A model generated the notes under the pieces. It was not told the DNA's origin. It saw nothing but the letters and a program-made list of their open reading frames with translations, and made no database searches. A DNA stretch of 32,812 nucleotides from Pseudomonadales bacterium (GTDB taxonomy: Bacteria > Pseudomonadota > Gammaproteobacteria > Pseudomonadales > Azotimanducaceae), in the NCBI GenBank assembly GCA_028280225.1, contig JANQMF010000162.1:1-32812 (forward strand), written 5' to 3'. Both the position numbers and the translations under genes were made by a program. This document shows positions 3,060-25,091 of this stretch, in pieces; within the stretch, counting starts at the first letter, position 1, and every line of letters begins with the position of its first letter.

Positions 3060-4415
3060 TTAACCCTCCTTTTCCAGTTGTGTCAGCACGTTGCGTAAAA
3101 CGGGCCCGTATTCATATTTGCCGGGACAGGCATAAGTACACAGGGCAATATCCTCCTCATCCAGTTCCAGACAACCCAGGTTCACCGCGGTTTCCAAATC
3201 TCCAACCAGTAAGCTGCGCAGCAGCTGGGTGGCTAAGATATCCAGCGGCATCACCTCTTCAAAAGTACCGATGGGGACCATTCCCCTGGGGCTGCCATTG
3301 GTTGTTGTGCTGAACTGAATGCCTTTTTCACCCAACCACTTGGATAAGTAGATGGGAAAAACCGAGTGCCGGTTAGTCCCCGGGGTAAGATAGCCAAACA
3401 GACGCCGTTCAGAATCTTCGGGAATAACCGAAACCTGCAGATGGTAGCGGCCCAGAAAGTCCACCGGGCTGTGTGCCGTGCGGCCCGCCAGGATTGAACC
3501 GGAAATCACTCTTTGACTGCCGGGTTCAAGTTCCCCGGCTGTCAGCTCCTGTAAATTTGCGCCCACCACGGTGTTGATCAGGCGTGGTTTTGTCACTCCG
3601 GGACCTGCCAGGGACACCACTCTGTCGCTGAAGATTTTGCCGGTCAGGAACAAAGCGCCCAAGCTGATAACGTCCTGGTAGTTGATGTACCAGACCATCT
3701 TGGTTGCGTTAACCGGATCCAGGAAGTGAATGTGGGTACCCGGAAGACCCGCCGGATGTGGGCCCGAAAATTCATGGCTGCTTATTTTGCCGTCGTTGCC
3801 CGTGGGTAAAAATTTGCCCTTCTCATGGCAGACAAAAACAGGGCCTTCGGTCAGTTGGGCCAGCAGATCCAGGCCGGCGGCAAATTCGGTGGCTTTTTCC
3901 GGAATAATGAACAGCGGATCCGCAGCCAGCGGATTGGTATCCATGGCCGTGACAAAAATTGAATGTGGTGCGCTTTGGGGGTCCGGAACCTTGGCATAAG
4001 GCCGGGTGCGCAAACTTGTCCACTCTCCCGATGCCAACATCTGACTGACAATCTTATCGCGCCCGATATCTTTCAATTCATCTGCGGAGAATTGATCAAA
4101 GGTACGTTCCCCCCCTTCGGTCACCTCGATCACAACAGATTGCAGGGCGCGTTTTTCGCCGCGGTTAATTGAGCTGATGCGCCCGGCAGCCGGTGCGGTA
4201 TAGACCACCCCGTCTATTTTCTTGTCAGAAAACAGGATTTGCCCTTTGTCGACAACATCTCCCTCCGCCACAGCCATGGTGGGTTTCATTCCGGGGTAGT
4301 CGTCCCCAAGAATGGCAACACTGCGAACGGATCTGCCTGCCTCGATGGCCTGTTCCTGGCCTTGCAGCGGCTCACCCGCCACGGGTAGACGCAAACCCTT
4401 TTTAATATTTATCAT
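3060..4415 (-). CDS. nqrA: Na+-translocating NADH:quinone reductase subunit A
   Basis: This is the first gene of the nqr operon and encodes the peripheral cytoplasmic subunit linked to quinone binding. The protein is 451 residues from the chosen ATG (4413-4415), giving MINIKKGLRLPVAGEP, the typical NqrA N-terminus. In-frame GTG (4421) and TTG (4424) codons would add two or three residues and cannot be ruled out, because no strong Shine-Dalgarno stands before any of them. The frame ends two bases before the nqrB start codon. Transcription probably starts near 4677 from the promoter at 4684-4712, leaving a leader of about 260 nt. Confidence 0.95.
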   Translation of the reverse strand: MINIKKGLRLPVAGEPLQGQEQAIEAGRSVRSVAILGDDYPGMKPTMAVAEGDVVDKGQILFSDKKIDGVVYTAPAAGRISSINRGEKRALQSVVIEVTEGGERTFDQFSADELKDIGRDKIVSQMLASGEWTSLRTRPYAKVPDPQSAPHSIFVTAMDTNPLAADPLFIIPEKATEFAAGLDLLAQLTEGPVFVCHEKGKFLPTGNDGKISSHEFSGPHPAGLPGTHIHFLDPVNATKMVWYINYQDVISLGALFLTGKIFSDRVVSLAGPGVTKPRLINTVVGANLQELTAGELEPGSQRVISGSILAGRTAHSPVDFLGRYHLQVSVIPEDSERRLFGYLTPGTNRHSVFPIYLSKWLGEKGIQFSTTTNGSPRGMVPIGTFEEVMPLDILATQLLRSLLVGDLETAVNLGCLELDEEDIALCTYACPGKYEYGPVLRNVLTQLEKEG

Positions 4416-4677
4416 GCGCACCAATCACATTAATTCTTGTCCAGAAAGTGCAAATCCTCAAATACCGGGTATTTGGGACGGGCACTCATTGTCGTCCAGT
4501 GGGCCAAACGAATAAGCACAAGATGCTGTGCAAATCCCAACCGCCAAACGCAAGGTCTCAAGACTAGTGTAGTCGACTATTCGCAAGACCTTACATGTAT
4601 CCTTGCTGAGGTAACGTTGTATTGGCTAGGCCTGTAGGCCGGTTTGGGGACTGACTGAGCAGCACCCTGAAGTGGCC
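4416..4677 (-). promoter_or_regulatory. Long structured 5' leader of the nqr operon (candidate)
   Basis: No gene is seen here. The stretch between the inferred transcription start and nqrA holds four inverted repeats: 4459-4475 (CAAATACC-g-GGTATTTG, perfect), 4516-4531 (GCACA/TGTGC), 4552-4592 (AAGGTCT paired with AGACCTT, enclosing a GACTA-gtg-TAGTC hairpin) and 4629-4640 (GGCC-tgta-GGCC). That density suggests a folded RNA leader or protein operators. The 17-bp palindrome lies about 45 nt upstream of the nqrA start. I recall that leader motifs named after nqrA exist in RNA family collections, but I cannot match this one by eye. The repeats are seen; the function is inferred. Confidence 0.45.
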
Positions 4678-4766: not shown

Positions 4767-5936
4767 TTAGTAGTAAAAGGAAAAGAATAGACGAGTTACC
4801 GTGGAGTCAAACTCGTACAAAGGTTCTTCCCCCGGTGCAAAACCCGTGGCTGTGACATCGCGAAAGTTGTCATAAGCAAAGTCAATATAGTCGACAAACA
4901 GGCTCAACTGACCCCGTTTAAACCCGGGAAACCAGTCCATGTCAAATTCATAGGTTACCCCGGCACCCAGGGTATTGGTTTGAAACGCAGCCAATTCCTT
5001 ATCCCGGGCAATAAAGTTTTGCGCATTTGACCGCGGAAACAGGTCACTGTAAAAATCCGCCTCGGTCTGATCGTAAAAACGGTACTTCAGCTCTACCGTC
5101 AGCCCGGTTTCTTCGATGGGATGGGTATAAGCCACTTCCGCATTGTAGGCATTAATCCCCCAGGTATCGCTGTAGTTGCGAAACTCAAGTTTCAGGGCCG
5201 CCCGGTAAGGCAAAAAATACATGGCCCGAATGGCTTGAGCAGAACTGGTGCGGGTACGCGGATACAGTTCTGCTTCATAACTGTAACCACGGGCAGAATT
5301 TGGATCCAAAAAGCGTACCTGGCGATAGGGGTTGTTTAAAAAACCCTCATCCGTCACACCTTCGTAGTTCAGGTTGACAATCAGGTTTTTGGTGATGACC
5401 TGGGACAGATCTACCCGGTAAATCTGCCGCTTGGCGTCCTCTTCAAAGTTATCATCACCATTGCGGCGCACCGTGTCAGAGCCCCGGGCGTAACTGATGC
5501 CCAGGGTGGTCAGGTCACCAAAAAAGTCCTGGCTGATACCGAAGCGGAAGGAATGGGCAGAATAATCATCTTCCTCCGAGTTGGTGTAGGACAGGCCCAT
5601 AAAGGTCTTGCCGTGCAAATAGTCAAAACCTAAGCTTTTTTCTTCCCGCTCCTCGGTGTATTCACTTGCTGTGGCCATCACGTCGATGGATGCGCTGGAT
5701 ATGTGGTCAACGTAGTAGTTAGCCCATATGGATACTTTGTCTTTAATACCCTTGCGCACCAGCACTGAAGGTCCGGTTACTTCCAAACCACCCCCTTCAT
5801 AACCATGGTACATGACATCAGCCCGGTCCTCGGGCAACACCGCTGCATAACCGGATATTCCCGTAACCAGGAAAAACAGCATACCCGCCGCCATCAGCCA
5901 GATTAATCTTGCGGGAAAGTACGCTTTAATTTGCAT
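4767..5936 (-). CDS. DUF3570 family outer-membrane beta-barrel protein
   Basis: The protein has 389 residues. A signal-like hydrophobic segment occupies about residues 10-32. The rest alternates short hydrophobic and polar stretches with many aromatic residues and ends in FFSFYY, as expected of an outer-membrane barrel. I recognise the overall sequence as DUF3570, a family often found beside DUF4266 and ApbE or thioredoxin-like genes. Function is unknown; a pore or a scaffold for redox proteins in the outer membrane is plausible. It is the last gene of the minus-strand set and starts 44 nt after the DUF4266 gene. Its upstream region carries two copies of GGGACAA (direct repeat) that may include the ribosome-binding site. 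Confidence 0.8.
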   Translation of the reverse strand: MQIKAYFPARLIWLMAAGMLFFLVTGISGYAAVLPEDRADVMYHGYEGGGLEVTGPSVLVRKGIKDKVSIWANYYVDHISSASIDVMATASEYTEEREEKSLGFDYLHGKTFMGLSYTNSEEDDYSAHSFRFGISQDFFGDLTTLGISYARGSDTVRRNGDDNFEEDAKRQIYRVDLSQVITKNLIVNLNYEGVTDEGFLNNPYRQVRFLDPNSARGYSYEAELYPRTRTSSAQAIRAMYFLPYRAALKLEFRNYSDTWGINAYNAEVAYTHPIEETGLTVELKYRFYDQTEADFYSDLFPRSNAQNFIARDKELAAFQTNTLGAGVTYEFDMDWFPGFKRGQLSLFVDYIDFAYDNFRDVTATGFAPGEEPLYEFDSTVTRLFFSFYY

Positions 5937-5980
5937 GCCAAATTGTCCCTAATTTGTCCCTGCGCGAAATTCGCGTAAAA

Positions 5981-6214
5981 CTAGTTGCATCCGCAACCAC
6001 CACCGGAACCGCCTTCAGCCCCACGCGCGCCTTCCCGGGCCTGGTAAACATGGTGTAAGTAAGCTGCGGAAACCGGATCGCGGCTGAAACTCATGATCGG
6101 GTCTGCCAGGTTGTTTCTCTCAAAAGGGCTGACCCAGGGCTTGAGTTCGTAGTTGCTGCAACCACCGGAGCCGACAACCAAGAAAAACAACAGCAACAAA
6201 TAACGTCTTTTCAT
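5981..6214 (-). CDS. DUF4266 family small lipoprotein
   Basis: This 77-residue protein starts with a basic n-region, a hydrophobic core and a lipobox-like GSGGC (Cys19), so the mature chain should be lipid-anchored. The middle holds the family pattern KPWVSPFER-N-LADP and a DPVSAAYLHHVY helix. The C-terminus is glycine-rich and ends GGGCGCN; the two cysteines at the tail are a hallmark of DUF4266. The role is unknown; the cysteine pair could bind a metal or form a disulfide. A GGAG ribosome-binding site stands 6 nt before the ATG. The gene lies between two beta-barrel genes, 10 nt after the preceding stop, which argues that it works at the outer membrane with them. Confidence 0.8.
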   Translation of the reverse strand: MKRRYLLLLFFLVVGSGGCSNYELKPWVSPFERNNLADPIMSFSRDPVSAAYLHHVYQAREGARGAEGGSGGGCGCN

Positions 6215-6224
6215 ATCTGCTCCG

Positions 6225-6947
6225 CTAGAAGAAGAAGGTCAGGCCAGCACTGAATTCAACGTTGTGTTTGCCTTCCATCGTGCCCAACAAGTCTGATTCG
6301 AAGTAGTGATCGCGCACATCCAGGTGCAGGGCCATCCAATCCGTTGCCACAAAGCGATACCCTGCCCCGGCATTGATGGTAAATAAATCGTCACCGCCAA
6401 ATTCCGTACTGCCTGCACCGGCAATCAGATAAAGCCCCCCCTTAAACGCCCACCGTCCGGCAACAAAAGATTCACCGGGAAAAATGTTCCACCCCAGGGA
6501 AACGTTATAAAAGGTCACGTCCCGTTCTTCATCGGTCAGCAAAGGTGCACCGCCGCTGAGCTGTTCAAAGCTGGTCTGGCCTAATTTAGAGCGGCCATAG
6601 ACACCCTCAACAAAAAAATGTTCGGAAATATGGTAAGCCAGGCGGATACTGGTGGAGGTATCCGTGCCAAAGTCCTCAAAGTGCATGAGTCCGGCATTGA
6701 TACCAATCTCAAAGTCTTCACTGTCGATGGCATCCACTTTAACCTTACGTTGTTCCGGCTCGCGGACCACCAGAGGTTCCAGTTCCAGGTCCTCAGCCTC
6801 CGTGGCCGCCAGGGCCAATTCGGCACCTGATCCCAGGCTGAACAGCAGAACCAATATCTGCATAAGCCACCCGGCAGACCGGGCACATGAAGTGGCGTTT
6901 TGCGTTTTGTTTTGGTTTAGAAAAATATACTGAAGCCTGCTTTCCAT
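6225..6947 (-). CDS. Small outer-membrane beta-barrel protein (OMP_myx_plus/TIGR04565-like)
   Basis: The encoded 240-residue chain has a hydrophobic signal segment ending in ELALA near residue 47, then a short acidic linker (about 48-75) and a barrel of roughly eight strands. It ends GLTFFF with a terminal Phe typical of outer-membrane proteins. The pattern fits the outer membrane beta-barrel domain first defined in myxobacteria. Two starts are possible: ATG at 6945-6947 (31-nt overlap with the preceding gene, GAAGAGA-like site upstream) or ATG at 6861-6863, which gives a more usual signal peptide starting MQILVLLFSLG. I list the longer form. It is followed by the DUF4266 gene 10 nt later. 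Confidence 0.7.
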   Translation of the reverse strand: MESRLQYIFLNQNKTQNATSCARSAGWLMQILVLLFSLGSGAELALAATEAEDLELEPLVVREPEQRKVKVDAIDSEDFEIGINAGLMHFEDFGTDTSTSIRLAYHISEHFFVEGVYGRSKLGQTSFEQLSGGAPLLTDEERDVTFYNVSLGWNIFPGESFVAGRWAFKGGLYLIAGAGSTEFGGDDLFTINAGAGYRFVATDWMALHLDVRDHYFESDLLGTMEGKHNVEFSAGLTFFF

Positions 6948-7678
6948 TGATCTATCTCTTCGTTGTCATCCCGACTCGTCAACACCGTATGGCGCTTGTA
7001 TTCCATGCGCAGCATGAACCGATCATTCAGGTATAGGTTTGCCCCTACCCCCGCATGCGCAATTTCATCCTCGCGATCTTCCGCGGCAACAATTGTGGTA
7101 TGCGGTTTTGTGGTGATTATGCCTGTACCGATAGTGAAATAAGGTGACAGACGCCACTTCGGGAAGGGATACATAAGAATATTTGCGGACGCCATCACAC
7201 CGTCGGAAAATTCACCTAATATTTGTGTCCCTTCCACCTGCAACGTAATGTTGGGGGTCAGCGCATAGCCGATATAGCCGGACAGGGAGTTAGCCCCGCC
7301 GAAGTCGCCACCGTTAAATCCCATCTCCCAGCGGCGTTTACTGAAATCACCCAAGCCCAGCTCACCAAAATCTATGGGATCGCCGTTCAGATCCAGGGTA
7401 TGACGCATCTCATTGCGGTGCACCCAGCCTTCTTTGTCCCGCGGCGTGCGCACCTTGTACCAATCGGTTTTGGATTTCAGAATCTGTACTTCATCACCCT
7501 GAGCCGCCACATAAAATATGGGATAACCCTTGCCGGGGCCGGTACGCAGTTCAATGTAGGGATCCGAGACCACCACCAACGGCTGGTACTTTTCGAACGG
7601 ATTCCAGGCGGCAGCACTGCTGCTGAAAATAAGCATCAGCACCATCAGGCCCCATTGGATATATCGATTGTTATTCAT
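6917..7678 (-). CDS. SH3b domain plus outer-membrane beta-barrel protein
   Basis: From the ATG at 7676-7678 the product has 253 residues. A signal peptide covers about 1-24 (ending SSAAA). A bacterial SH3 domain spans about 35-92, with the hallmark YIELRTGPGKGYPIF, a W-Y-K-V segment and EGWVHR. A beta-barrel domain from about 105 to the end finishes in FSIFF. Bacterial SH3 domains bind peptide stems or other cell-wall parts, so the protein may tie the barrel to peptidoglycan. It is the paralogue-like partner of the next barrel, with which it overlaps or nearly abuts. A longer reading back to 7795 gives a poor N-terminus and was not used. Confidence 0.75.
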   Translation of the reverse strand: MNNNRYIQWGLMVLMLIFSSSAAAWNPFEKYQPLVVVSDPYIELRTGPGKGYPIFYVAAQGDEVQILKSKTDWYKVRTPRDKEGWVHRNEMRHTLDLNGDPIDFGELGLGDFSKRRWEMGFNGGDFGGANSLSGYIGYALTPNITLQVEGTQILGEFSDGVMASANILMYPFPKWRLSPYFTIGTGIITTKPHTTIVAAEDREDEIAHAGVGANLYLNDRFMLRMEYKRHTVLTSRDDNEEIDQWKAGFSIFF

Positions 7679-7745
7679 ATCTGCCGTATGTCCTTCTTCG
7701 GCCTCTTTCTTCGGCCCCCTTCTTCGGAGTAGCTTTGGCCTTAAA

Positions 7746-10454
7746 TTACTGGGGAACCACAAAGGGGTCGTTGTAATATTGTCCACCCACATCAATCCAT
7801 TCCGAAATCAACTTCAACTCCGCCTCGGACAACCGGCCTTGATGGCTGCCGGCAGGTCCAAACAGGTCAAAAAAGCGGGGGCTGAAGTTTGCACCCGCCA
7901 CACTCAGCGAGGGTGTCACCCCAACCGGTACCAGCACCGGGATGGGATTGTCGTCCGCATCCAGCACCAGGGTGCCGTCAGCATTGGTTTCAAAAAGCAG
8001 ATTGCCGTTACCATCCGTTGCCTGCACCAACCTGTCTTGCACCGCCCCGTCCACCAGTTCTTGTTCATTGTCGTTAAACAGCAACTCGCGATAGCTTTTC
8101 AACTGATCAGCCTCTTCCGCGCTGGGGCCGTCAGACAAATCCAATTGCGCCATGGGTACCATGGCGGCACCGTCGCCATCAACGATGTTGTGGCAGGACG
8201 TACACGTATCGTCAGACACAAGCGTTATGCCGTCGGTGTCAAAGATGCGGCGGTCAACCGCCCAGATGGGATGAATATGATCGGGATAATGTACCGTAAT
8301 ACGGCATGCTGCCGTCCAGTTGGTCACACACCCCGCATCCACCGGCGGCGGGGTTGACAGGTTGGTATACAAATACGCAAAGCTTGGGTCCTTTGTGCGC
8401 ACATTGGGATCTGTCCACACATCGTCATAGACTATGTCCACACTGGGATCAGGGATGGCCGCGCGAGTGATCACCTCGGCCATGGTTTCCCCGGCGTTTG
8501 CAAACAAAGCTGGTTCGGTGTTGGGGAAAGGTGAGCCGTCAGCCACCGCTCCGGAATTAATGCTGGGTGCCTCAGCGTCAGCACGGCCATGTGGCAGTTC
8601 GCTGGTAGAGGTATGGCAGCCGTTACAGGTTTTTTCTTCACCCGGACGCAATTGCATCCAGTTATTGTGGCGCTCAAATATGCGCCGCCCGTCAGCATCC
8701 AGAATTTCTATCCAAAAAGCGATATTGGCCGGGACCTTCACCTTTACCGAACCGTCAGGTTCAACGGCGGCATAACCAATAATTTCACGCATCAGTTGGG
8801 CTTGGGAGCGGCCAAAGTCGGCGCCATCAAGATCCACAATATCATCATCCGGAATGGATACCGATTTGGTGATGCGCACAAAGCGGGCGGGTCTGTCTGC
8901 CGCGGCGGTTTGCAACGGGTCCGCCAAAACCCCGATATCTGCCGCGGCGGTTCCGTCAAAGTCGTATACCGAACGTATATGCAGTACGCCAACGGATTCA
9001 CCCACCAGATCAGGGTCCAGATCCAGCCCGGGGACTTTGTCCAGTATCACCGGTGGGTTTACCCGGTTCTCCATGACCACAGATTCAGAATAGGCCATAC
9101 CCGCCTGGGCCAGCACAATGGGTTGCTGGGTACTTTCGGTCACATCATTCATCCAGATGCCGTACAGCGGATCCGCTTCGATCATATCCGGATTGGCTAA
9201 ATTCTCATCGGTACAGGGTAAGATGACCGGGTCCAGGGGATTACTGGTGGTGTCTTCCAGACGGCACTGGCTCCAGGCGACCAACAGCCGGTTTGTACCG
9301 TCGTAAAGGGGTGAGATATGCGCATAACGGCCCTGCCGGGGCGGCTCTGATTCATCCAGGCTGAGATCACCGGGAATAAGAATCTCCTGGGCGTCCGTTA
9401 ATAACCCCTGGCTGGCGAAGGTCGGCTGGTCGTGCTCAACATAGCTGGCCACATCGATGGCCACGGGCAGCGCGCCCAGACGCGCTTGCGCGCCCGGCGC
9501 GCGCATCATAACCAGCAGTCGCCCATCCGGCAGTTCCGTCGGCTCGACAAATTCAATCACTTCCCCGTTGGGCCCGGTGTCGTGGCTGTGCACCCCATAA
9601 AGGAGTTCTTGTTCCGTCCCGTCAGGGTTGGCGCGGTACAGGCTGATCCGGTCGCGCCCTGCCACATTGTCCCAACGGGCATAGACAACACGCCCATCAG
9701 ACATCACCGCCGGATCTAAGTCCGAACTTTGGTTGAAGGTAATTTGCTGCAGATCCGTACCATCCACGTTCATGACGTGCAGCGTCAGAGCTTCTTCATC
9801 CCGGTCTTCATCCAGAGCGGAAAACTGGGGTTTTCCCTCATCCAACAATATGGCCTTGCTCAGGCGCTGGCGGGTTGAGGAAAAGACAATACGTCCGTCC
9901 GGCAAAAACTTAGGCGCCACATCCTGCCCATCTTCGGCAACAATGTCGGAGGTAATGGCCCGGGTAACCGTGCCTAACTCCCGGTCGTATACCCAGATAT
10001 TCCAGGTGGGTTGTTCGTCATCGTCCAGATCCGGATCTTCCGGTGCACGCAGGGCAAAGGCCAATTGGTTACCGTCATAAGAAACGGCAAGGTCCTTAAC
10101 GTCAATCAAAGCCGGGTTGCCGTCTTCGTCATCCGGGAATAACCCGGCGGTGATATTCACCTCATCCGCGCTGGGTGAGGCCCGATCGCGGACAAAAATT
10201 TGTGCCCCCGGAAAGAACTCGGTGGCGTTACGAACTTCGGTGGTTAAAAGGTTGCCGTCATCATCCGTCAGCAGCGGGCGCTGTACATAGGCAACGGCAA
10301 AATCGACCACCACCGGATCAGGGCTTTGACCGCCCCCCAGTCCGGCACTGCCGCCGGAACTTCCGGAGCCGCCACCGCCACAACCGGCGGCTGCCACAAG
10401 GGTGGCACCGGCAAATATCCAGGTGTACAGACGATTCAGGTGTGAGCTGCGCAT
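7746..10454 (-). CDS. Diheme c-type lipoprotein with beta-propeller, hydrazine synthase alpha-like
   Basis: The 902-residue product begins with a signal peptide and lipobox AAAGC (Cys25), then a Gly/Ser-rich linker. Residues about 80-350 hold TolB/PD40-like propeller repeats such as PKFLPDGRIVFSS and PAVMSDGRVVYAR. A middle part ending KVKVPANIAFWIEILDADG resembles the HZS_alpha domain and leads into the first haem site C-N-G-C-H (610-614). The second is C-T-S-C-H (751-755). The C-terminus has a cytochrome-like GRLSEAELKLISEWIDVGGQ. Such proteins are widespread outside anammox bacteria and do not imply hydrazine chemistry; here an extracytoplasmic electron carrier or oxidase is likely. It is the first gene of the minus-strand set, divergent from the DUF1588-like gene. 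Confidence 0.8.
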   Translation of the reverse strand: MRSSHLNRLYTWIFAGATLVAAAGCGGGGSGSSGGSAGLGGGQSPDPVVVDFAVAYVQRPLLTDDDGNLLTTEVRNATEFFPGAQIFVRDRASPSADEVNITAGLFPDDEDGNPALIDVKDLAVSYDGNQLAFALRAPEDPDLDDDEQPTWNIWVYDRELGTVTRAITSDIVAEDGQDVAPKFLPDGRIVFSSTRQRLSKAILLDEGKPQFSALDEDRDEEALTLHVMNVDGTDLQQITFNQSSDLDPAVMSDGRVVYARWDNVAGRDRISLYRANPDGTEQELLYGVHSHDTGPNGEVIEFVEPTELPDGRLLVMMRAPGAQARLGALPVAIDVASYVEHDQPTFASQGLLTDAQEILIPGDLSLDESEPPRQGRYAHISPLYDGTNRLLVAWSQCRLEDTTSNPLDPVILPCTDENLANPDMIEADPLYGIWMNDVTESTQQPIVLAQAGMAYSESVVMENRVNPPVILDKVPGLDLDPDLVGESVGVLHIRSVYDFDGTAAADIGVLADPLQTAAADRPARFVRITKSVSIPDDDIVDLDGADFGRSQAQLMREIIGYAAVEPDGSVKVKVPANIAFWIEILDADGRRIFERHNNWMQLRPGEEKTCNGCHTSTSELPHGRADAEAPSINSGAVADGSPFPNTEPALFANAGETMAEVITRAAIPDPSVDIVYDDVWTDPNVRTKDPSFAYLYTNLSTPPPVDAGCVTNWTAACRITVHYPDHIHPIWAVDRRIFDTDGITLVSDDTCTSCHNIVDGDGAAMVPMAQLDLSDGPSAEEADQLKSYRELLFNDNEQELVDGAVQDRLVQATDGNGNLLFETNADGTLVLDADDNPIPVLVPVGVTPSLSVAGANFSPRFFDLFGPAGSHQGRLSEAELKLISEWIDVGGQYYNDPFVVPQ

Positions 10455-10774
10455 AAACTTCTTTCGAGCCTCGATACCCGTTACGTTGGCCTGCTATTTT
10501 TTCACAAGGCCCTTACAAATAGTTGTGCGCCACATCACGTCCCGTTAACCGTGGTTGGCACAGGGACTTATTTGCAGCTACTTTTTTGTTAGCCGTTTGT
10601 CTGACCAGGCCGCAGATTCTTACATTGGCATAAAAAGTGGAACTTCGTCACAGCTTTAAGGGCGAGTTTTCTTGATCCTATGCGCCTTGAACGCCCACAG
10701 GGATGAAGGGGTTTTGCAGCGTCCGTTCTTCGACAGTTGAGTTCGCACTTAGGACGCAGATATAGGAGCAACTC
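10455..10774. promoter_or_regulatory. 320-bp divergent intergenic region between the two halves of the cytochrome locus
   Basis: No gene is seen. The region separates the minus-strand HZS-like gene from the plus-strand DUF1588-like gene and must hold the start signals for both. On the plus strand a TAGGAG ribosome-binding site stands 6 nt before the ATG at 10775. I found no convincing -35/-10 pair on either strand. A TTGGCAC...TTGCA pair near 10555-10576 resembles sigma54 boxes, but the spacing is wrong. Confidence 0.5.
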
Positions 10775-11995
10775 ATGAGGTTTGTTGGACCTGCCGTTAG
10801 CCGTTTTTGCAGGGTACTGCTGCTCATATCGGCCACCCTAAGTACATCCGGTGCCATTGCTGATGCCACCGATCAAGCCAAGCGTCTCCACGATCGAATT
10901 GCCGGTGTGCCCCCGGATGCCACCACCCTGGACGACATGCGTATTCTGATCACCGGCGGACAACCCCTGGAGGCGGCGCTGCTCGCCACCCAGTCGCCGG
11001 AATTTTATAGCGTAACGCTTAAGAACTTTGCCGCCCCCTGGACGAACAGGGATCAGAGTGTCTTTGTCCCCTTGGATGACTATATTGCCACGGTCATCGG
11101 CATGGTCCGCGACGACGTCGATTTTCGTGAGCTGCTTTCCGGCGACATATTATATATCGGCAGCGGCGGCGGTGTACCCGCCTATTCCAATTCCTCCAAC
11201 GCACACTATGACGCTTTGGAAGACGCCGGCACAGATCTACAGGCCAATCTGACCGCCACCACTCAGTCTGCGGTGACCGGACTGCCCGCGGAGGCCACCG
11301 CTGGCATTTTGACCACCCGCTCAGCAGCCAAAGCCTTTTTTATTGCGGGTACCAATCGCGCCATGTTCCGCTTCACCATGCTCAACCACCTGTGTCTGGA
11401 CATGGAGCAAGTTCACGACGTAACCCGGGTCCCGGACCGGATTCGTCAGGATGTTTCCCGCAGCCCCGGGGGAGACAGCCGTGTTTTTCTGAACAACTGC
11501 ATCGGTTGCCACGCGGGCATGGACAGCATGTCTCAGGCTTTTGCCTACTACGATTATGAATATGACGAAATGAACGACCCTGATGCCCAGAATGGCTCAA
11601 TCAACTACAACGGCACCGGAGAGGTAGACCCGGTTACCGGTACCCGGGTGGAAGAAAAGTACTTTAACAACAACCTCAACTTTGAACACGGTTTTGTGAC
11701 CCCCAACGATGATTGGATCAACTACTGGCGCGAAGGCCCCAACAAACTCCTGGGTTGGGACACTGCCTTACCCAACAGCGGTACCGGCGCCAAAAGCATG
11801 GGCCGGGAACTTGCCCACTCTCAGGCTTTTGCTCAATGCCAGGTCAGGAAGGTATTCGAAAACGTCTGCCTGCGCCCACCCCAGGACAGCAGTGACCGCA
11901 ATCAGATCGACAGTATGGTGAGTTCCCTGCAAACCAGCGGTTACAACCTGCGCCGTACCTTTGCCGAATCCGCCGTTTACTGTATGGGCAGCTAG
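10775..11995 (+). CDS. Monoheme DUF1588/DUF1585-like exported protein
   Basis: This 406-residue protein has an N-terminal signal sequence (about 1-29, ending SGAIA). One c-type haem site, C-I-G-C-H, is at residues 242-246. The stretch TAGILTTRSAAKAFFIAGTNRAMFRF (about 175-200, shown only in part by motif) resembles the DUF1588/DUF1592 segment of planctomycete-type cytochromes. The C-terminal R-x-x-F-x-E-S-A-V-Y resembles the DUF1585 end. These families usually occur beside DUF1501 proteins, as here. The substrate is unknown. Translation is well set by TAGGAG 6 nt before the ATG. It leads a three-gene plus-strand operon; the next gene's ribosome-binding site overlaps its stop codon. Confidence 0.65.
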   Translation: MRFVGPAVSRFCRVLLLISATLSTSGAIADATDQAKRLHDRIAGVPPDATTLDDMRILITGGQPLEAALLATQSPEFYSVTLKNFAAPWTNRDQSVFVPLDDYIATVIGMVRDDVDFRELLSGDILYIGSGGGVPAYSNSSNAHYDALEDAGTDLQANLTATTQSAVTGLPAEATAGILTTRSAAKAFFIAGTNRAMFRFTMLNHLCLDMEQVHDVTRVPDRIRQDVSRSPGGDSRVFLNNCIGCHAGMDSMSQAFAYYDYEYDEMNDPDAQNGSINYNGTGEVDPVTGTRVEEKYFNNNLNFEHGFVTPNDDWINYWREGPNKLLGWDTALPNSGTGAKSMGRELAHSQAFAQCQVRKVFENVCLRPPQDSSDRNQIDSMVSSLQTSGYNLRRTFAESAVYCMGS

Positions 11996-12005
11996 GAGAT
12001 AAACG

Positions 12006-14450
12006 ATGAATAATCAGCTTATAAAAGTAGTTAGTCTTCTTAGCCTTAGCCTGATCCTGCAGGCCTGTGGCAGCGGCAGCGGTGCGTCCACCACGGAAAA
12101 TCCGATTACCGCCGCACCGGATGTCAGCAACTACTCCGGCCCGGCCCCGTCAACCCCGGATGTGCAGGCCTTTAAGCTTGCTCTGTGGGACAATCTGGTG
12201 CCGAACAACCGCTGTGGCACCTGCCACAACGATGACCAAAATCCACGTTTTGTCCGCTCGGATGACATCAACGATGCCTATACCGAAGCCAATACCATAG
12301 TCGACTTAGCGGATCCGGCTAATTCGATCATGGTCAGCAAGGTACGCGGTGGACACAATTGCTGGCTCAGCAGCGACGACGCCTGCGGCGATATTATCCA
12401 GTCTTATATCGAAAACTGGGCCGGTCAAACGCTGGGGGGTACCGGTAAAGAAATTCAACTGGAAGCACCCCCCATCCAGGATCCGGGCACCAGCAAAAAC
12501 TTCCCCGCCGACACCGCATTATTTGCCGCTGAGGTATATCCTCTGTTGACCGAATACTGCTCGGATTGTCACCGGGACACCGCCGCCATCCCCCAGAGCC
12601 CGTTTTTTGCCAGTGAAGAAATCGATACGGCTTACGCGGCAGCGCAGACGCGGATCGACCTGGAAACCCCCAGTGCCTCACGTTTTGTCGTCCGCCTGGG
12701 CGGTGAATTCCACAACTGCTGGGATGACTGCACCAGCAACGCCGCCGAAATGGAAACCGCCATCACCAACATGTCCGACGCCATTGTGCCCACTACGGTG
12801 GACCCGGCCCTGGTGACCTCAAAAGCGCTGCGTCTGATCGACGGCATCATCTCTTCCGCCGGTGGCCGCCACGAAACCAATGTGATTGCGCTGTACGAAT
12901 TTAAGACCGGCATTGGCAATACGGTTTTTGATACCAGCGGCATCGAACCTTCCCTGAACCTGACCCTGTCCGGTGACTACGGCTGGGTTGGCGGCTGGGG
13001 GGTGCAATTTACCGATGGTAAGGCCCAGGGATCCACCACCGCCTCGGCCAAACTGCGGGATCAGATTACCGCCACCGGCGAATATACCATTGAGTTGTGG
13101 GCTGCCCCGGCCAATGTGACCCAGGACGGGCCCGCGCGCATTGTCACCTATTCCGGTGGTCCTACCTCGCGCAACTTTATGCTGGGCCAAACCTTGTACA
13201 ACTACGACACGTTCAACCGCTCGGACCAGTCCGACCAGGCGGGTGAACCCCAATTGTCCACAGCGGATGACGATGAAGACTTACAGGCAACACTGCAACA
13301 TGTGGTGGTGACCTATGATCCGGTGAACGGCCGGCAGATCTTCGTAAACGGCATGCACACCGGTGACAGTGATGCGGTACCCGGCGGTTTGCTCAACGAC
13401 TGGGACGATACCTTTGCCCTGGCACTGGCCAGCGAGGTTGACAACAACAACCGCTGGGCCGGGACCGTGCGCCTGATGGCCATTCACAACCGTGCCCTCA
13501 CCCAGGCACAAATCACCCAGAACTATGATGTTGGGGTGGGTGAAAAGTACTACCTGCTGTTCAACATCAGCGATCACATCAGCGTCGCGGACGCCTATGT
13601 GGTCTTTGAGGTGAGCCAGTTTGACAATCACGCCTACCTGTTTGATGAGCCTTTCTTTGTCATCCTGGACAGCACCGCCACGCCAGGCAGCTTTCCCATG
13701 CAGGGTATGCGCCTGGGTCTGAACGGACGTGAGGTGGCGGTTGGGCAGGCATTTGGCAATCTGGATATCACCATCAACGACAGCGACTATGCCGTTGAAG
13801 GACTCCAGCGCCTCTCGGACCTGGGTACCATCATCCCCCTGGAAAAAGGCCCCACCCTGGACGAATTTTTCCTCACCTTTGAACAATTGGCCGGGGAAAG
13901 TAATGTGGTGGTGGAAGCAGATCCCATTGCCCCGCCACCTCCTGCGGACGTGCCCCGGGATCCAGAGCTGGGCATTCGCGACTTTGCCGAGATTAACGCC
14001 ACCATGTCCAAGCTCACCGGTGTACCCACCACGGATCCGGCGGTGGCACCCACCTTTGAGCAGGTCCACCAGGCCTTACCCGTGGGCACCAACGTGGCCG
14101 GCTTTATTTCATCCCAGCAGATGGGTATTACCCAGTTGGCCATCAAGTACTGTGCCGCCCTGGTGGATGACACCACGGCCCGGGCCGGCTACTTCCCCGG
14201 TTTCCCCTTTGGCGCGGATGCCAGCGTTGCCTTTAACGACCCGGATCTGCTGCTGGATCCCCTGGTCAACAACATGGTAGGCAACGGCATCAGCACACAG
14301 CCGGACCTGGCTGCGCTGCGGACCGAAGTGGAGAGTCTGGTGACCTCCCTGACCGCTTGCGGCGGTGGCTGTGCCCCGGACCGCACCGAATCCGTGGTCA
14401 AGGCAGCCTGTGCCTCGGTGCTGGGTAGTGCCGCCATGCTGGTTCAGTAG
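12006..14450 (+). CDS. Diheme LamG-domain lipoprotein with duplicated cytochrome module
   Basis: The 814-residue product starts with a signal peptide and lipobox LQAC (Cys21). Two similar haem modules follow, at about residues 53-140 (C-G-T-C-H, 70-74) and 168-258 (C-S-D-C-H, 185-189). Each contains the same later pattern, with AY-x-x-A-x-T, DL/DLE-x-P and GG-x-x-HNCW. A LamG/concanavalin-like domain (about 295-510) contains YTIELWAAP, a typical strand of that fold, suggesting carbohydrate or polymer binding. A further globular region ends in a cysteine-rich tail (CGGGC). It is probably anchored in the outer membrane facing outward or into the periplasm. The start is fixed by a strong AGGAG site that overlaps the previous stop. 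Confidence 0.75.
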   Translation: MNNQLIKVVSLLSLSLILQACGSGSGASTTENPITAAPDVSNYSGPAPSTPDVQAFKLALWDNLVPNNRCGTCHNDDQNPRFVRSDDINDAYTEANTIVDLADPANSIMVSKVRGGHNCWLSSDDACGDIIQSYIENWAGQTLGGTGKEIQLEAPPIQDPGTSKNFPADTALFAAEVYPLLTEYCSDCHRDTAAIPQSPFFASEEIDTAYAAAQTRIDLETPSASRFVVRLGGEFHNCWDDCTSNAAEMETAITNMSDAIVPTTVDPALVTSKALRLIDGIISSAGGRHETNVIALYEFKTGIGNTVFDTSGIEPSLNLTLSGDYGWVGGWGVQFTDGKAQGSTTASAKLRDQITATGEYTIELWAAPANVTQDGPARIVTYSGGPTSRNFMLGQTLYNYDTFNRSDQSDQAGEPQLSTADDDEDLQATLQHVVVTYDPVNGRQIFVNGMHTGDSDAVPGGLLNDWDDTFALALASEVDNNNRWAGTVRLMAIHNRALTQAQITQNYDVGVGEKYYLLFNISDHISVADAYVVFEVSQFDNHAYLFDEPFFVILDSTATPGSFPMQGMRLGLNGREVAVGQAFGNLDITINDSDYAVEGLQRLSDLGTIIPLEKGPTLDEFFLTFEQLAGESNVVVEADPIAPPPPADVPRDPELGIRDFAEINATMSKLTGVPTTDPAVAPTFEQVHQALPVGTNVAGFISSQQMGITQLAIKYCAALVDDTTARAGYFPGFPFGADASVAFNDPDLLLDPLVNNMVGNGISTQPDLAALRTEVESLVTSLTACGGGCAPDRTESVVKAACASVLGSAAMLVQ

Positions 14451-14505
14451 CGGCAGGCTGAGCAATGTACAACAAGCAATTTAAGTAGGAACTAGAGGAT
14501 TTAAC

Positions 14506-16122
14506 ATGCGTAGACGTAGACAACGTAAGTACGATGACCCATTGTGTCATGCAGATCATCCTCGGCCCCGTACCCGCAGAGAGTTTCTTGCCCAGGGATT
14601 TATGATGGGCACCGGCGCGGTACTGGGCCCCAGCCTGGTGACCCTCCCCGGCGGGGTCAGGGCGGAATTGTCGTCGGACCTGGCATCACTGGTGGCCGGA
14701 TGTGGTATTACCGCTCAGGGCGCGGGGAAAATTCCCTTTATCGCCTTTGATCTGGCCGGTGGATCCAACCAGGCCGGCTCCAACGTGCTGGTCGGCCGCC
14801 AGGGTGGACAGCTTGATTTTCTGACCACCGCCGGTTACGAGCGGCAAGGTCTGCCCGGGGATATGGTGCCCTCCATTGTCAACCCGGACACCCAGACCAA
14901 CGACTTTGTGGACACCACCCTGGGTCTGGCCTTTCACTCGGACAGCGCCTTTCTGCGCGGCATGATGACCCGCATCTCGCCGGCGACCGCAGCCAATATT
15001 AACGGGGCGGTAATCCCCGCCCGCTCGGAAAACGATACCGGCAACAATCCGCACAACCCCATGTACGGCATTGCCAGCGCCGGTGCTGATGGTGAGCTGC
15101 TAACCCTGATTGGCTCGGAAAACTCAGATTCCGGCGGCAACTCCATGGCACCCCAGTCGATGATCGATTTAACCAAGCGGCCCACCAAGGTTGACCGGCC
15201 CACGGATGTGACCGGCCTGGTGGATGTGGGGGATTTGACCGAAGTATTGACCCAACAGGACGCGGTGGCGGTGATGGAATCGATCTACCGCATCAGCGAT
15301 CAGAAAATGCAGGCCGTTGACGTGGACAACAATCCAATTACCCCGGACGATGTGATTAAGGATCTGGTGAAGTGTGGTTACCTGAAAAGTGCGGATCTTG
15401 CGGACCGCTTTGGTAATCCCAGTACCTTAAATCCGCTGACAGACCCCCAGATTGTCGGCGCAACCGGTATCTTTACCGATGCGGAATTTGATGCCGGGGA
15501 CCGCTCCGCCCGGGAATTTCAAAAGACCGCATCGGTCATGAAAATGGTCATTAACGGGTTTGCCGGTGCCGGCACCATCGAGATGGGTGGTTATGACTAT
15601 CACGGCGGACGGCGAGCGGAAGGTGAAGTTAAAGACTTCCGCGCCGGTGAGTGTATGGGTGCCTGTCTGGAATATGCCGCCCTGCAAAATATGCCCCTGA
15701 TGATGTACGTTATGTCCGACGGTTCGCTGTCTTCCAACGGCGCCATCGACGATACCGTGGATGGACGCGGCAAGGGTGAATGGGTCAGCGACAACCAACA
15801 GACCGCTGCCACCTTTTTCCTGGTTTACAACCCGGCGGGCCGGCCAACCTTAATTGGCGCCACCCCCGAACAACAGGCTGTACATCAGCAAATTGGCTAT
15901 ATGCGGCCGGACGGCTCGGTGGAAACCGGCGGCACCCCCGCGGCCAACAACGTAAATCTATTGGCCGAAACCATTGTTCTTAACTACATGGCCTTACACG
16001 GCGAAAACGGCAACTTTGGTACCGTGATGCCTGACCACGGCTTGGGCAACAGTACGCTGCAGGACAGTTTGACCGCCTTTGAGCCCATCGTAAACGGCAC
16101 CATAGGCAATCCGCCAACCTAG
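14506..16122 (+). CDS. DUF1501 family protein, Tat-exported
   Basis: The 538-residue product carries a twin-arginine signal, T-R-R-E-F-L at residues 23-28, followed by the hydrophobic AQGFMMGTGAVLG, so it is exported folded. The body has DUF1501 features (a fold related to the sulfatase/alkaline phosphatase superfamily), including the IPFIAFDLAGGSNQAGSN start and GYDYHGGRRAEGE. DUF1501 proteins are nearly always paired with DUF1592/1588/1585-type cytochromes; here the partners are the two upstream cytochromes. Its reaction is unknown. A GAGG ribosome-binding site stands 8 nt before the ATG. Its export by Tat suggests that a cofactor is inserted in the cytoplasm, but I see no obvious binding motif. 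Confidence 0.8.
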   Translation: MRRRRQRKYDDPLCHADHPRPRTRREFLAQGFMMGTGAVLGPSLVTLPGGVRAELSSDLASLVAGCGITAQGAGKIPFIAFDLAGGSNQAGSNVLVGRQGGQLDFLTTAGYERQGLPGDMVPSIVNPDTQTNDFVDTTLGLAFHSDSAFLRGMMTRISPATAANINGAVIPARSENDTGNNPHNPMYGIASAGADGELLTLIGSENSDSGGNSMAPQSMIDLTKRPTKVDRPTDVTGLVDVGDLTEVLTQQDAVAVMESIYRISDQKMQAVDVDNNPITPDDVIKDLVKCGYLKSADLADRFGNPSTLNPLTDPQIVGATGIFTDAEFDAGDRSAREFQKTASVMKMVINGFAGAGTIEMGGYDYHGGRRAEGEVKDFRAGECMGACLEYAALQNMPLMMYVMSDGSLSSNGAIDDTVDGRGKGEWVSDNQQTAATFFLVYNPAGRPTLIGATPEQQAVHQQIGYMRPDGSVETGGTPAANNVNLLAETIVLNYMALHGENGNFGTVMPDHGLGNSTLQDSLTAFEPIVNGTIGNPPT

Positions 16123-16211: not shown

Positions 16212-17591
16212 TTGTCGGATTTAGCCTGTCCAAATTGTCAGCAAGCTGTTACCACAACCGCTAATGGATACCGGTGCAAGGCCTGCCGGATCAGTTTTCC
16301 CAAACTGGGCAAGGTGCCGTTTATGTGGCCCCAACCCAGTGCCGGCTTATTGGACTGGCGCAACCGCTTTAACTTTGCCCTGGCGGATCTTGACAGCCAG
16401 ATCACTGCTATCCCGCAGCACAGCAGCCCGCTACCCAGTACCCGGCAGCGGCTGACCTGCTTGTCACAGGGACTACAGACACACCAAAACGAGTTACAGG
16501 ACATTCTAGCCCCCCTGCGTGTTGGCGAAACCCTGGCCAGGGAAACTCACCTGGCCCTGGCCACCCGGCTACCGAGCCACCATGGCATTTTGTCTTACAC
16601 CACACACATATTTCGAGATTGGAGCTGGGGTGAGGAGGAAAATCAACTGGTTGCCGGTCATCTGGTGGATGTGCTCAAGCCCAACCTGGGTGAGCGCGTG
16701 CGCATGCTTGTTTTAGGTGCCGGCGCCGGACGCCTGGCTTATGATCTTCACCACAAGCTGCCCGGCAATATCGACACCGTTGCCCTGGACAGCAATCCGT
16801 TTCTGTGTCTGGTCGGCCAGACCTTGATCAGCGGCGGCTCCTTATCACTTACGGAATTTCCCCATGCCCCCATAGATGCTGAAGATGTCGCCATCAGCCG
16901 GATCTTAACTGCCCCCCCGGGTGACAACACCGCGCCCATAACGTACATCTGCGCGGATGCCACCCGGCCACCCTTTGCACCCGGCAGCTTTGATGTGGTG
17001 GTCACACCCTGGCTGATTGATGTGATCGACATGGGCTTAAGCCCCTTTGTGCTAAAGGTGGGTGAACTCCTGGCGGAAGGTGGCCTGTGGCTCAATCACG
17101 GCTCCGTTGCTTTTCGCGGCACAAACCCGCTCAACCGCATCACCGCCAACGAAATAGCGGAGCTGAGTGAACAGGCCGGATTTGAGATCTGTCATCAGGA
17201 CAATACGCAATTCCCCTACCTTCAGTCCCCGGCCAGCCGTAACCATCGCCGGGAAAATGTGTATACCCAGTTGGCGAAAAAAAGTGCCGAGTCACACATA
17301 CGCAACAAAGGCACCAGGCGCACCCATCAGCACTTGCCGGATTGGATTGTCCATGCCAATGTGCCGGTGCCAGTGAGCCCGGAGTTTCAGACCCAGATCA
17401 CCACGGTGCGTATACATGCATTTATCATGGGGTTGATCGACGGCAAACGGGACATTAATGCCATGGCAAAGGTCCTGGAAGAACAGCGTTTAATGCCGGC
17501 CAACCAGGCCACTCAAGCCATTCGCGGATTTTTGCAGAAAATGTATGAAGAGGCCGTGACCGCAAGCGGTCACAGCCAGTCATCCCCTTAG
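16212..17591 (+). CDS. Zinc-ribbon SAM-dependent methyltransferase, CARNMT1/N2227-like, with PqqD-like tail
   Basis: The 459-residue product has three parts. Residues 1-30 form a zinc ribbon (CPNC at 6-9, CKAC at 22-25). Residues about 125-340 are a Rossmann methyltransferase, with FRDWSWGEEE before SAM motif I LVLGAGAGRL (166-175), acidic D193 after strand 2, and DVVVTPW (261-267). This layout resembles carnosine N-methyltransferase-like (N2227) proteins. Residues about 405-450 (GLIDGKRDINAMAKVLEE) look like a PqqD-type winged-helix tail. The TTG start at 16212 is supported by AAGGA 7 nt upstream and by the zinc ribbon starting at once. The substrate is unknown; cotranscription with the cytochrome/DUF1501 genes 90 bp upstream is possible. 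Its stop overlaps that of lpxC. Confidence 0.65.
   Translation: MSDLACPNCQQAVTTTANGYRCKACRISFPKLGKVPFMWPQPSAGLLDWRNRFNFALADLDSQITAIPQHSSPLPSTRQRLTCLSQGLQTHQNELQDILAPLRVGETLARETHLALATRLPSHHGILSYTTHIFRDWSWGEEENQLVAGHLVDVLKPNLGERVRMLVLGAGAGRLAYDLHHKLPGNIDTVALDSNPFLCLVGQTLISGGSLSLTEFPHAPIDAEDVAISRILTAPPGDNTAPITYICADATRPPFAPGSFDVVVTPWLIDVIDMGLSPFVLKVGELLAEGGLWLNHGSVAFRGTNPLNRITANEIAELSEQAGFEICHQDNTQFPYLQSPASRNHRRENVYTQLAKKSAESHIRNKGTRRTHQHLPDWIVHANVPVPVSPEFQTQITTVRIHAFIMGLIDGKRDINAMAKVLEEQRLMPANQATQAIRGFLQKMYEEAVTASGHSQSSP
17556..17573. terminator. Inverted repeat at the convergent methyltransferase/lpxC ends
   Basis: GTGACCGC-aa-GCGGTCAC is a perfect 8-bp inverted repeat inside the last codons of the methyltransferase gene and just past the lpxC stop. 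It could act as a two-way terminator, although neither side has a clear T-tract. Confidence 0.35.
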
Positions 17592-22592: not shown

Positions 22593-23348
22593 CTAATACT
22601 CATCATCAGCGTAATCATCTTCTTCGTCATCAAAGCCGTCTGTGGCAAATGGGTCATCCTCAATCGTGCCATCGTTAATCAGAAATACCCGCCGCTGCAG
22701 GTAAGCGTCCCGCAAAAACAGGTACTCATCACCCACCACCAGTGCCTCTGCGCTCAGCAGATCCGCGCGCAAATCTATGACCGAAAGCGCGGCAAGGGGA
22801 TAACGCTCCTGGGGGCGGCTGAGATAGCCAATCGGGTTAGTGAAGGCGTTAAATACCTGGCCGGTACCATCCCGCACCGACGAACTCCCTAAAAAGGGCA
22901 GCACCAGGTAATTTCCTGAACCAATCCCCCACACAGCAAACGTTTGGCCAAAGTCTTCCTGATGCGCCGGTAAACCTGATCCGGTAGCCACGTCAAACAG
23001 CCCCCCCAAACCAATAGTGCTGTTTATCAGAAACCGCCCGGTATCGGATAACGCCAGTTTGCCCTTACCTTGAAGCAATTGATTCAGCGCAACGGCCGGT
23101 GTACCCAGGTTATCAAAAAAATTACCAACCCCACGGCGTACAAAACCCGGGACCACGTTCACGTAGCCTTCGGCAACGGGTTTTACAACGTATCGGTCAG
23201 CCGCATCATTAAATTTGAAGATGCCGCGGTTCAGCCCTTCCCAGGGGTCGCGTACCTGATCTTCAGCAACCGCAAGGACACTGCTGCCCAACAGTAGGGC
23301 AAACATAAAGAGATTGAGAGGGGTGTTCTTCTTGTATGGGTTGGACAT
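22593..23348 (-). CDS. mlaA: MlaA/VacJ family outer-membrane lipid asymmetry protein
   Basis: MlaA forms a ring in the inner leaflet of the outer membrane and removes misplaced phospholipids, passing them to MlaC. The product has 251 residues from the ATG at 23346-23348, preceded by GGAAA about 8 nt upstream; a frame back to 23390 adds 14 residues without support. The signal peptide ends SSVLAVA. The family start DPWEGLNRGIFKFND (about 33-47) and RFLINSTIGLGGLFDVA are clear. There is no lipobox Cys, unlike the E. coli lipoprotein, so cleavage by signal peptidase I is likely. The C-terminal tail is very acidic. It begins only 43 nt after the hvfC-like stop and may be cotranscribed. Confidence 0.9.
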   Translation of the reverse strand: MSNPYKKNTPLNLFMFALLLGSSVLAVAEDQVRDPWEGLNRGIFKFNDAADRYVVKPVAEGYVNVVPGFVRRGVGNFFDNLGTPAVALNQLLQGKGKLALSDTGRFLINSTIGLGGLFDVATGSGLPAHQEDFGQTFAVWGIGSGNYLVLPFLGSSSVRDGTGQVFNAFTNPIGYLSRPQERYPLAALSVIDLRADLLSAEALVVGDEYLFLRDAYLQRRVFLINDGTIEDDPFATDGFDDEEDDYADDEY

Positions 23349-23391
23349 TGATAATTTCCAGTTCAGCAGCCGGCACAAGTGCTGCAACATG

Positions 23392-24159
23392 TTAACGGGT
23401 GCCGCGTATTATGCCTTGAGAATGCAGGTGTGTAAGGGTCTGCATCCCCTGATCCTGCACTTGTTGTAAACTGATCTTGCGCCCACCCTGCTCCAGTTCC
23501 TGGTGGATTTGTGTTATGGCCGCAGCACCCGGCAGCTCAGCCACCAGTTCCAGCAGCCGATGGGTCACCGGATTAGACTCTATAAATCTGACTACATCCT
23601 TATCGTTGCGGTAAACGATCAAAAAGGTGGGCTGCCCGCCGGGTTCCCCGGGCTGGTGCTCCACCCCAATAAGATGCACCGGATAACTATAGGTCAGCGT
23701 CCGCGTATAGGGGTTAAGTAAAATTTCGCGATGCCAATTCACCTGTTGACCTGGCTGCTCTTCTTCACGGTCCGCTGCCACATCCAGGCTCAGTTCAACC
23801 CACTCGTAGTGGCACAGCTCCAACAAAAACCCAGGCAGATCATGTAGTCCACGCTCATGCAAGAAAGTTAGAAATTCTTCGGAAATTTGCAGAAAGTACG
23901 GGGATTGACTGCCGTGCAGATGGATGAACTCGCGCACCAGAGTCAACCAGCGGTGTTCCCCAACGATCTCCTTGGCTATGGGAAAGGCGCTTGCCACAAA
24001 GTTTTGAATATTGTTGAAGAACAAGTCCAGGTAAATCTGCATGCGTCGAGGTTCAATATCCCCGGGCCGCTCATGCACCTTGGGGTTGCGTATGTGATCC
24101 GCAAACTGAAGCTGAACAGAACGGAAAAAAGGCAGGTTTGCGCCAAGGGGCTGCATCAC
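23392..24159 (-). CDS. DUF2063 family partner protein of an MNIO enzyme (HvfC-like)
   Basis: The 255-residue product starts with the DUF2063 (PF09836) helical domain: [11 protein letters not shown], then [19 protein letters not shown] at about 38-56 and [14 protein letters not shown]. The C-terminal half (about 150-255) is a mixed domain ending in a winged-helix-like segment. In HvfB/HvfC systems this partner binds the precursor leader and helps the iron enzyme modify it. The ATG overlaps the hvfB-like stop by 4 nt (ATGA), a mark of coupled translation. Old annotation as DNA-binding is not supported by this context. Confidence 0.85.
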
Positions 24160-25049: not shown

Positions 25050-25091
25050 AACAGGATAGTCCGGTGTCCGGCTAAGCCCGGTGCACGTCGC

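Follow-up and report, generated by a model that had tools for sequence, protein, structure and literature searches.

Gene content of the locus

The window, i.e., the whole stretch of DNA analysed, comprises 32,812 nucleotides of contig JANQMF010000162.1 from a Pseudomonadales bacterium of the Azotimanducaceae (assembly GCA_028280225.1). This study concerns a locus of eight genes at its positions 4767–16122, for which an original prediction, made from the sequence alone, had proposed an outer-membrane redox machine. All eight open reading frames (ORFs) were found where they had been placed, and the 320-bp intergenic region shared by the two arms was confirmed at 10455–10774, as read from the ORF coordinates. 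The two operons had been described as facing; the shared gap stands, but the arms are divergent and lie back to back. Scanning of the gap for sigma-70 promoters and terminators returned none of either.

The minus-strand arm encodes, in this order, a dihaem lipoprotein related to the alpha subunit of hydrazine synthase (HZS) with a TolB-like propeller (7746–10454), an SH3 domain joined to an outer-membrane barrel (6917–7681), an outer-membrane barrel of the OMP_myx_plus type (6225–6902), a DUF4266 lipoprotein (5981–6214) and a DUF3570 protein (4767–5936), which is likely a barrel as well. The labels originally given to these five proteins were borne out by profile matches above the respective cut-offs, with PF18582 at 59 bits for the HZS-like protein (cut-off 26.6, E 7.2e-16), PF08239 at 48.6 (cut-off 27) and PF13505 at 30 (cut-off 28.7) for the SH3 barrel, TIGR04565 at 163.7 bits for the second barrel (cut-off 60), PF14086 at 78.6 bits for DUF4266 (cut-off 27, E 6.6e-22) and PF12094 at 120.8 bits for DUF3570 (cut-off 25, E 8.2e-35).

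On the plus strand follow a monohaem protein (10775–11995), a distant relative of the PSCyt3/PSD2 (DUF1588/DUF1585) proteins that is here called PSD2-like, a dihaem LamG lipoprotein (12006–14450) confirmed by PF13385 at 62.9 bits (cut-off 27.6, E 5.1e-17), and a protein predicted to be exported by the twin-arginine translocation (Tat) pathway (14506–16122), here called DUF1501-like, with a possible alkaline-phosphatase-superfamily fold. The translations contain the five CxxCH sites and three lipid anchors that had been counted before, namely two CxxCH in the HZS-like, one in the PSD2-like and two in the LamG protein, and lipobox cysteines in the HZS-like, LamG and DUF4266 products. Most relatives of these three have a lipobox-like pattern as well (HZS 68/80, DUF4266 64/73, LamG 63/67).

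Conservation of the layout

A scan of named genomes returned at least 569 relatives, of which the best 80 loci, gammaproteobacterial and representing the close end of the family, were kept; 59 of these were evaluable and 21 had too little flank. The original prediction had named a lack of conserved linkage between the two arms as refuting it; the linkage was instead strong over many Gammaproteobacteria families, and 56 of the 59 evaluable loci have the complete set of eight genes in the divergent arrangement of the window. The three exceptions are L104, where DUF4266 appears at a looser threshold, L085, which is without an SH3-barrel match, and L120, which is without the plus arm. The bacteria that share the layout, many of them marine, include Marinobacter, Alteromonas, Shewanella, Microbulbifer, Glaciecola, Thalassotalea, Alcanivorax, Gilvimarinus, Thiodiazotropha and Woeseiaceae, among others. 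From the collected relatives, translated stretches with a stop were dropped, by which 74/75 DUF3570, 73/74 DUF4266, 72/73 PSD2-like, 67/70 LamG, 59/65 DUF1501-like, 77/78 SH3-barrel, 53/60 TlpA and 27/31 ApbE sequences were kept.

Among 57 related genomes, an HZS-like orthologue was present in 14 (a weak 55-residue match in G003 was not counted), and the DUF1501-like gene was found in 13 of these 14 and in none of the other 43. Seventeen loci were fetched from related genomes; nine are whole and ordered as in the window, contig ends truncate four others, two consist of the minus arm only and two are distant or fragmentary matches. Recurrence of the layout in 9/17 related and 56/59 named loci is more than would be expected by chance. 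In one of the nine whole loci (L036, G019:C6, around 762700–766800), the LamG and DUF1501-like matches each fall into two pieces, reflecting either real decay or an assembly error.

Association with a Glt/Agl-type core

In relatives, a gene for a TlpA/ResA-like thioredoxin often lies between those for the barrels and DUF4266, and genes for ApbE, a core marker and TPR proteins adjoin. The term core marker denotes a small protein that was labelled 'WxL' in this work and is unrelated to the Gram-positive WxL domain. Within the 59 evaluable named loci, TlpA was found in 49, ApbE in 28, the core marker in 41 and the first TPR gene in 35. Beyond these, many relatives have genes for a protein of the MotA/TolQ/ExbB group, for two ExbD proteins and for a TonB-like protein with an AgmX/PglI tail, a domain known from gliding proteins of Myxococcus.

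The motor genes stand side by side in L162 (PF01618, E 3.1e-28; two PF02472 proteins, E 7.2e-12 and 2e-18), and by tblastn the order of AglR-, AglQ- and AglS-like genes is the same in L159–L164. The tail of the TonB-like protein matches the AgmX/PglI model NF033768 at 69.9 and 69.6 bits (cut-off 40), and the GltG-like proteins reach 44.1 and 38.8 bits with the GltG equivalog model, below its cut-off of 650. Three TPR-type proteins have sizes fitting GltC, GltD and GltE; a GltE match was obtained for the small one only, at 44.4 bits against a cut-off of 225, and TPR matches are promiscuous. In L186 and L187, sixteen co-directional genes, with ApbE at the head, extend from the HZS-like through to the GltG-like gene.

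Hence, the eight-gene locus appears to be part of a larger system that also includes a Glt/Agl-type core. The parts fit the outer-membrane redox machine of the original prediction; taking the eight genes as the whole system does not hold, since TlpA, ApbE and the Glt/Agl-type motor adjoin in many genomes.

No Glt/Agl core genes lie within the window. In three genomes of the window genus (L159–L161), they form the series ApbE-TlpA-marker-TPR-TPR2-TPR3-small-AglR-AglQ-AglS-GltG, unlinked to the HZS locus, and in the window's own genome the same set is divided within TPR2: contig C229 carries the genes from ApbE up to one part of TPR2, and contig C36 carries another part of it and the genes up to the GltG-like one. 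ApbE is absent from the window locus; the genome holds two ApbE genes elsewhere, one of them beside the core on C229. In G057 (L040, L043, L167), several divergent copies of the system are present, one of which runs SH3/OMP-OMP-marker-TPR-motor genes and then the HZS-like gene.

Co-occurrence across the class was determined by searching 274 Gammaproteobacteria genomes with four profiles, counts being based on 273 with the window's own genome left out. HZS was borne by 38 genomes, the DUF1501-like gene by 34, the core marker by 57 and the GltG-like gene by 59; HZS co-occurred with the marker in 37/38, with the GltG-like gene in 35/38 and with the DUF1501-like gene in 31/38. Within the 57 related genomes, the marker was found in 13 of the 14 with HZS and in two of the 43 without it.

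In a quick tree, 85 marker proteins were compared, of which 67 had been labelled as redox-linked and 18 as standing alone (fragments of up to 110 aa dropped); the tree required 5 label changes compared to 16.6 upon shuffling, with none of 500 shuffles as low. One locus (L246) was labelled redox in this tree though only ApbE, marker and TPR matches were found there. In the window genus, where the core is unlinked, the marker falls among the redox-linked ones. In one genome with a Glt-type core and no HZS (G149), the same 20-kb stretch (L232) contains a 744-aa frame with 21 CxxCH, read from base 2 on the minus strand.

The HZS-like protein

The HZS-like protein matched the alpha subunit of hydrazine synthase (5c2v_A) in a profile comparison (E 1.3e-17) and in a Foldseek search with its model (E 3.9e-22, TM-scores 0.32–0.36, model mean pLDDT 58.6), where TolB propellers came next. 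Taken together, these sequence and model comparisons support the predicted HZS-alpha fold of the 7746–10454 product. The NCBIfam equivalog NF052339 was not reached (56 bits vs. a cut-off of 800). None of the 12 alignment rows of the family has a tyrosine at the position of alphaTyr591, the ligand of haem alphaI. His871 is invariant in these rows and aligns with chain position 745 of 5c2v_A; equated via an offset of 27 from the CxxCH histidine, it would be the counterpart of alphaHis772.

HZS-alpha homologues outside anammox were described in 2025 (PMC12758564); like the present protein, they combine a propeller, a middle domain with CxxCH and a C-terminal haem domain, and they lack Tyr591. The present family differs in that the His772 counterpart appears to be kept, the distal haem alphaII ligand of this type being absent from the published clade I homologues (PMC12758564). 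Its partners are of the Glt type, not HZS beta-gamma-like, though no search aimed at beta-gamma homologues was made.

Among HZS-like proteins encoded beside a PSD2-like gene, 71/73 have two CxxCH; where no plus arm adjoins, three are present, as in seven loci (L042, L043, L183–L187). An extra HZS haem domain and the plus arm were considered as alternatives to each other, and the idea was rejected as a strict rule because L120 and L121, each with 10 kb of flank and no PSD2-like match, encode HZS-like proteins with two CxxCH.

DUF3570, DUF4266 and flavinylation

Clusters of DUF3570, DUF4266, thioredoxin and ApbE were described in 2021, with the DUF3570 protein as a flavinylation substrate of ApbE (PMC8238504). 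The present system resembles these DsbD/thioredoxin-DUF4266-DUF3570-ApbE clusters in pairing DUF4266 with DUF3570 and, in many relatives, in bringing TlpA and ApbE; it differs in the added HZS-like cytochrome and barrels, in TlpA and ApbE lying outside the window locus, and in the flavinylation motif being mostly lost. The site [ST]GA[ST] is absent from the window's DUF3570 protein, where SSAS and ATAS are in place. Across the family, alanine-serine is kept at both sites and the glycine is mostly lost, with any [ST]GA[ST] in 23/74 HZS-type relatives vs. 8/9 canonical DUF3570 proteins. The DUF4266 protein ends in GGGCGCN, and 71/73 relatives have the same end.

The nqrA gene (3060–4424) adjoins the DUF3570 gene in the window and in 8/17 fetched loci of related genomes. 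This adjacency, common in the window genus, was seen in 1/80 named loci, and nqrA is therefore regarded as a local neighbour only.

Plus-arm proteins

The 10775–11995 protein had been called a monohaem DUF1588-like protein. Its single CxxCH was confirmed and recurs in 72/72 relatives; DUF1588 is weakly supported, as the window protein matches PF07624 (DUF1585) only, at 21.3 bits, below the cut-off of 25.8. Of eight family members, seven match PF07624 (best E 1.6e-4) and seven PF07627 (DUF1588; best E 0.045). The LamG assignment recurs in 7/7 family members (PF13385), and two CxxCH are present in 65/67 relatives. A comparison with PHROGs gave one weak match, to the LamG protein only.

For the 14506–16122 protein, described as Tat-exported DUF1501, the two parts fared differently. 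A Tat-like RRxFL motif is present, with a similar motif in 55/59 relatives, but DUF1501 membership remained unconfirmed by hmmscan, Foldseek and profile–profile comparison. With hmmscan, 0/13 family members matched PF07394 (DUF1501) at E up to 10, and two hhalign alignments with DUF1501 had probabilities of 4 and 6%. A forced profile alignment placed GGYDYH onto GGWDTH and SDGSLSSNG onto DFGRTLTSNG. Foldseek, run on a poor AlphaFold model (mean pLDDT 54.5), gave a best E of 0.081, and its top 50 carried what we take to be alkaline-phosphatase-superfamily names. At best, the protein is distantly related to DUF1501. Sequence searches of the PDB with the DUF1501-like and core-marker profiles returned nothing credible.

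In six fetched loci (L220, L221, L222, L224, L225, L226), the PSD2-like, LamG and DUF1501-like genes stay together at a distance from the HZS genes, and the trio is therefore a separate module. Genome G008 has a second copy of it, near which lies an ORF of 528 aa with 21 CxxCH (L220:13636–15222).

Relation to known systems

A report of 2011 presented the gammaproteobacterial Glt/Agl core as conserved and of unknown function (PMC3169522), and one of 2013 regarded it as possibly a basal machine for transport; in Myxococcus, the proton-driven motor AglRQS moves Nfs complexes and glycan at the cell surface (PMC3858216). The present core shares with these systems the clustering of genes for MotA/TolQ and two ExbD proteins, an AgmX/PglI-tailed TonB-like protein and TPR proteins (PMC3169522, PMC3858216). 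It differs in the redox cassette: the passages available from the two papers mention no haem, TlpA, ApbE, DUF3570 or DUF4266, the words 'thioredoxin' and 'cytochrome' being absent from the main text of PMC3169522 and 'redox' from that of PMC3858216. No paper joining redox genes to the Glt core was among the literature matches listed, judged by titles and abstract starts, and a supplementary mention is possible. As far as tested, the locus and its relatives would, from their sequences, represent a variant of the Glt/Agl kind that carries redox genes.

The planctomycete-type PSCyt/PSD cytochromes (PMC5615132) are similar in that a protein of the PSCyt3/PSD2 kind is accompanied by a conserved partner and by a LamG protein; here the Pfam matches are marginal, there is one haem only, and the genes are linked to those of HZS and Glt.

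Proposed role and alternatives

We propose, with moderate confidence, that the locus is the redox and outer-membrane module of a Glt/Agl TolQR-type machine, this locus providing one half and the Glt/Agl-type core of Gammaproteobacteria the other. The core half would consist of the MotA/TolQ and two ExbD motor, the TonB-like arm with its AgmX/PglI tail, TPR proteins and the core marker. The motor would act on an outer-membrane assembly of barrels, DUF3570 and haem lipoproteins, making the redox proteins its outer-membrane output. Such mechanical coupling of the redox module to the motor is plausible, if short of probable; that a TolB-like propeller should accompany a motor of the TolQR type is a suggestive hint and no more. 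More tentatively still, this may be a machine with two energy inputs, in which the proton-driven Glt/Agl-type motor moves, loads or switches surface redox proteins. Electrons from a periplasmic donor might pass through TlpA and the DUF4266 CxC, with a DUF3570 flavin as a possible further step, reach the haems in the propeller/HZS-like protein and move onward to the PSD2-like and LamG proteins, where these would meet glycan or a particle at the surface; that this route holds in full is doubtful.

Several observations weigh against the proposal. The flavin site of the window's DUF3570 protein is degenerate, and in the window genus the two halves sit in separate loci. HZS is absent from 20/57 marker-bearing and 24/59 GltG-bearing genomes, and Fisher p values for co-occurrence, tiny as they are, ignore kinship. 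One single-contig genome (G097) retains the plus arm together with an incomplete HZS, and neither a marker nor a GltG match was obtained for it. When the 20 marker-only genomes were checked with family profiles built from every fifth sequence, 16 had no redox cassette in the fetched stretch, save weak TlpA matches in three; in two (G080, G098) the marker is flanked by genes for barrels, TlpA and DUF3570 with no HZS, and two (G156, G240) have a barrel, TlpA and DUF3570 next to it near contig ends, where HZS could be cut off. The genomes with marker or GltG and no HZS indicate that the core works without HZS; it is thus able to exist by itself, and only some cores carry the redox module. The quick marker tree has long branches, and a single origin of the redox-linked markers is unproven.

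Alternatively, and in line with the oxidative degradation machine that the original prediction had also suggested, the locus might encode a surface oxidoreductase that breaks down or modifies a polymer, with the motor only aiding secretion or assembly. The LamG domain in all members, its PSCyt3/PSD2-like partner and the trio found away from HZS genes are in line with this, as are planctomycete-type cytochromes in Verrucomicrobia near carbohydrate-active genes (PMC5615132). As none of the eight genes was recognised as encoding a glycosidase, lyase or sulfatase, and the Glt core is almost always present in HZS-bearing genomes, we regard this as unlikely. Decidedly less likely is a motor-independent extracellular electron conduit to insoluble acceptors, in a role like that of MtrCAB: three haem proteins, two of them lipoproteins, do stand beside outer-membrane barrels, yet there are five haem sites only, no multihaem protein in the locus and no quinol dehydrogenase recognised among the eight, and the tight tie to the Glt core would go unexplained. 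Very improbable is a system that matures outer-membrane proteins through thiol-disulfide and flavin chemistry, with the haem proteins as electron sink; the TlpA/ResA-like protein, the DUF4266 CxC and ApbE/DUF3570 form a described group (PMC8238504) that travels with the locus, but TlpA is absent from the window locus, and neither the LamG protein nor the motor genes would be accounted for. A hydrazine-synthase-like nitrogen enzyme, to which the HZS_alpha domain and fold and the alignment of His871 with alphaHis772 might point, is barely credible, and hydrazine synthesis was rejected because the alphaTyr591 counterpart is missing in 12/12 rows, homologues without key residues having been judged unable to make hydrazine (PMC12758564).

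The proposal of a redox module on a Glt/Agl-type machine joins orphan groups, i.e., the HZS-alpha-like cytochromes, the DUF3570/DUF4266 clusters and the PSCyt-type proteins, into one system. In the class sample, 37 of the 57 marker-bearing genomes also carry the HZS-like redox gene, and both sets adjoin in many loci, which provides a testable hint of what one lineage of core machines handles. Should the machine with two energy inputs be real, it would give the role of the core complex in lineages carrying the redox module. Cultured strains exist for some of the genera in which the system occurs, such as Marinobacter, Alteromonas, Shewanella and Microbulbifer.

Other genes in the window

Beside the DUF1501-like gene, on the plus strand, lies a possible ninth member of the locus (16212–17591), which by profile match encodes a CARME-like methyltransferase with a zinc-ribbon-like start and a weak PqqD-like C-terminus. 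A relative was found within 14/80 named loci, where adjacency or strand was not constant, and adjoins three of the six trio copies located away from HZS genes. The enzyme could modify a peptide or a protein of the locus.

Farther along, positions 23392–25520 hold a DUF2063 gene, a DUF692 (MbnB/TglH/ChrH) gene and a small upstream ORF (25092–25520, minus strand), which may form a peptide-modification cluster of the bufferin type, and an MlaA gene (22593–23390) comes after the DUF2063 and DUF692 genes.

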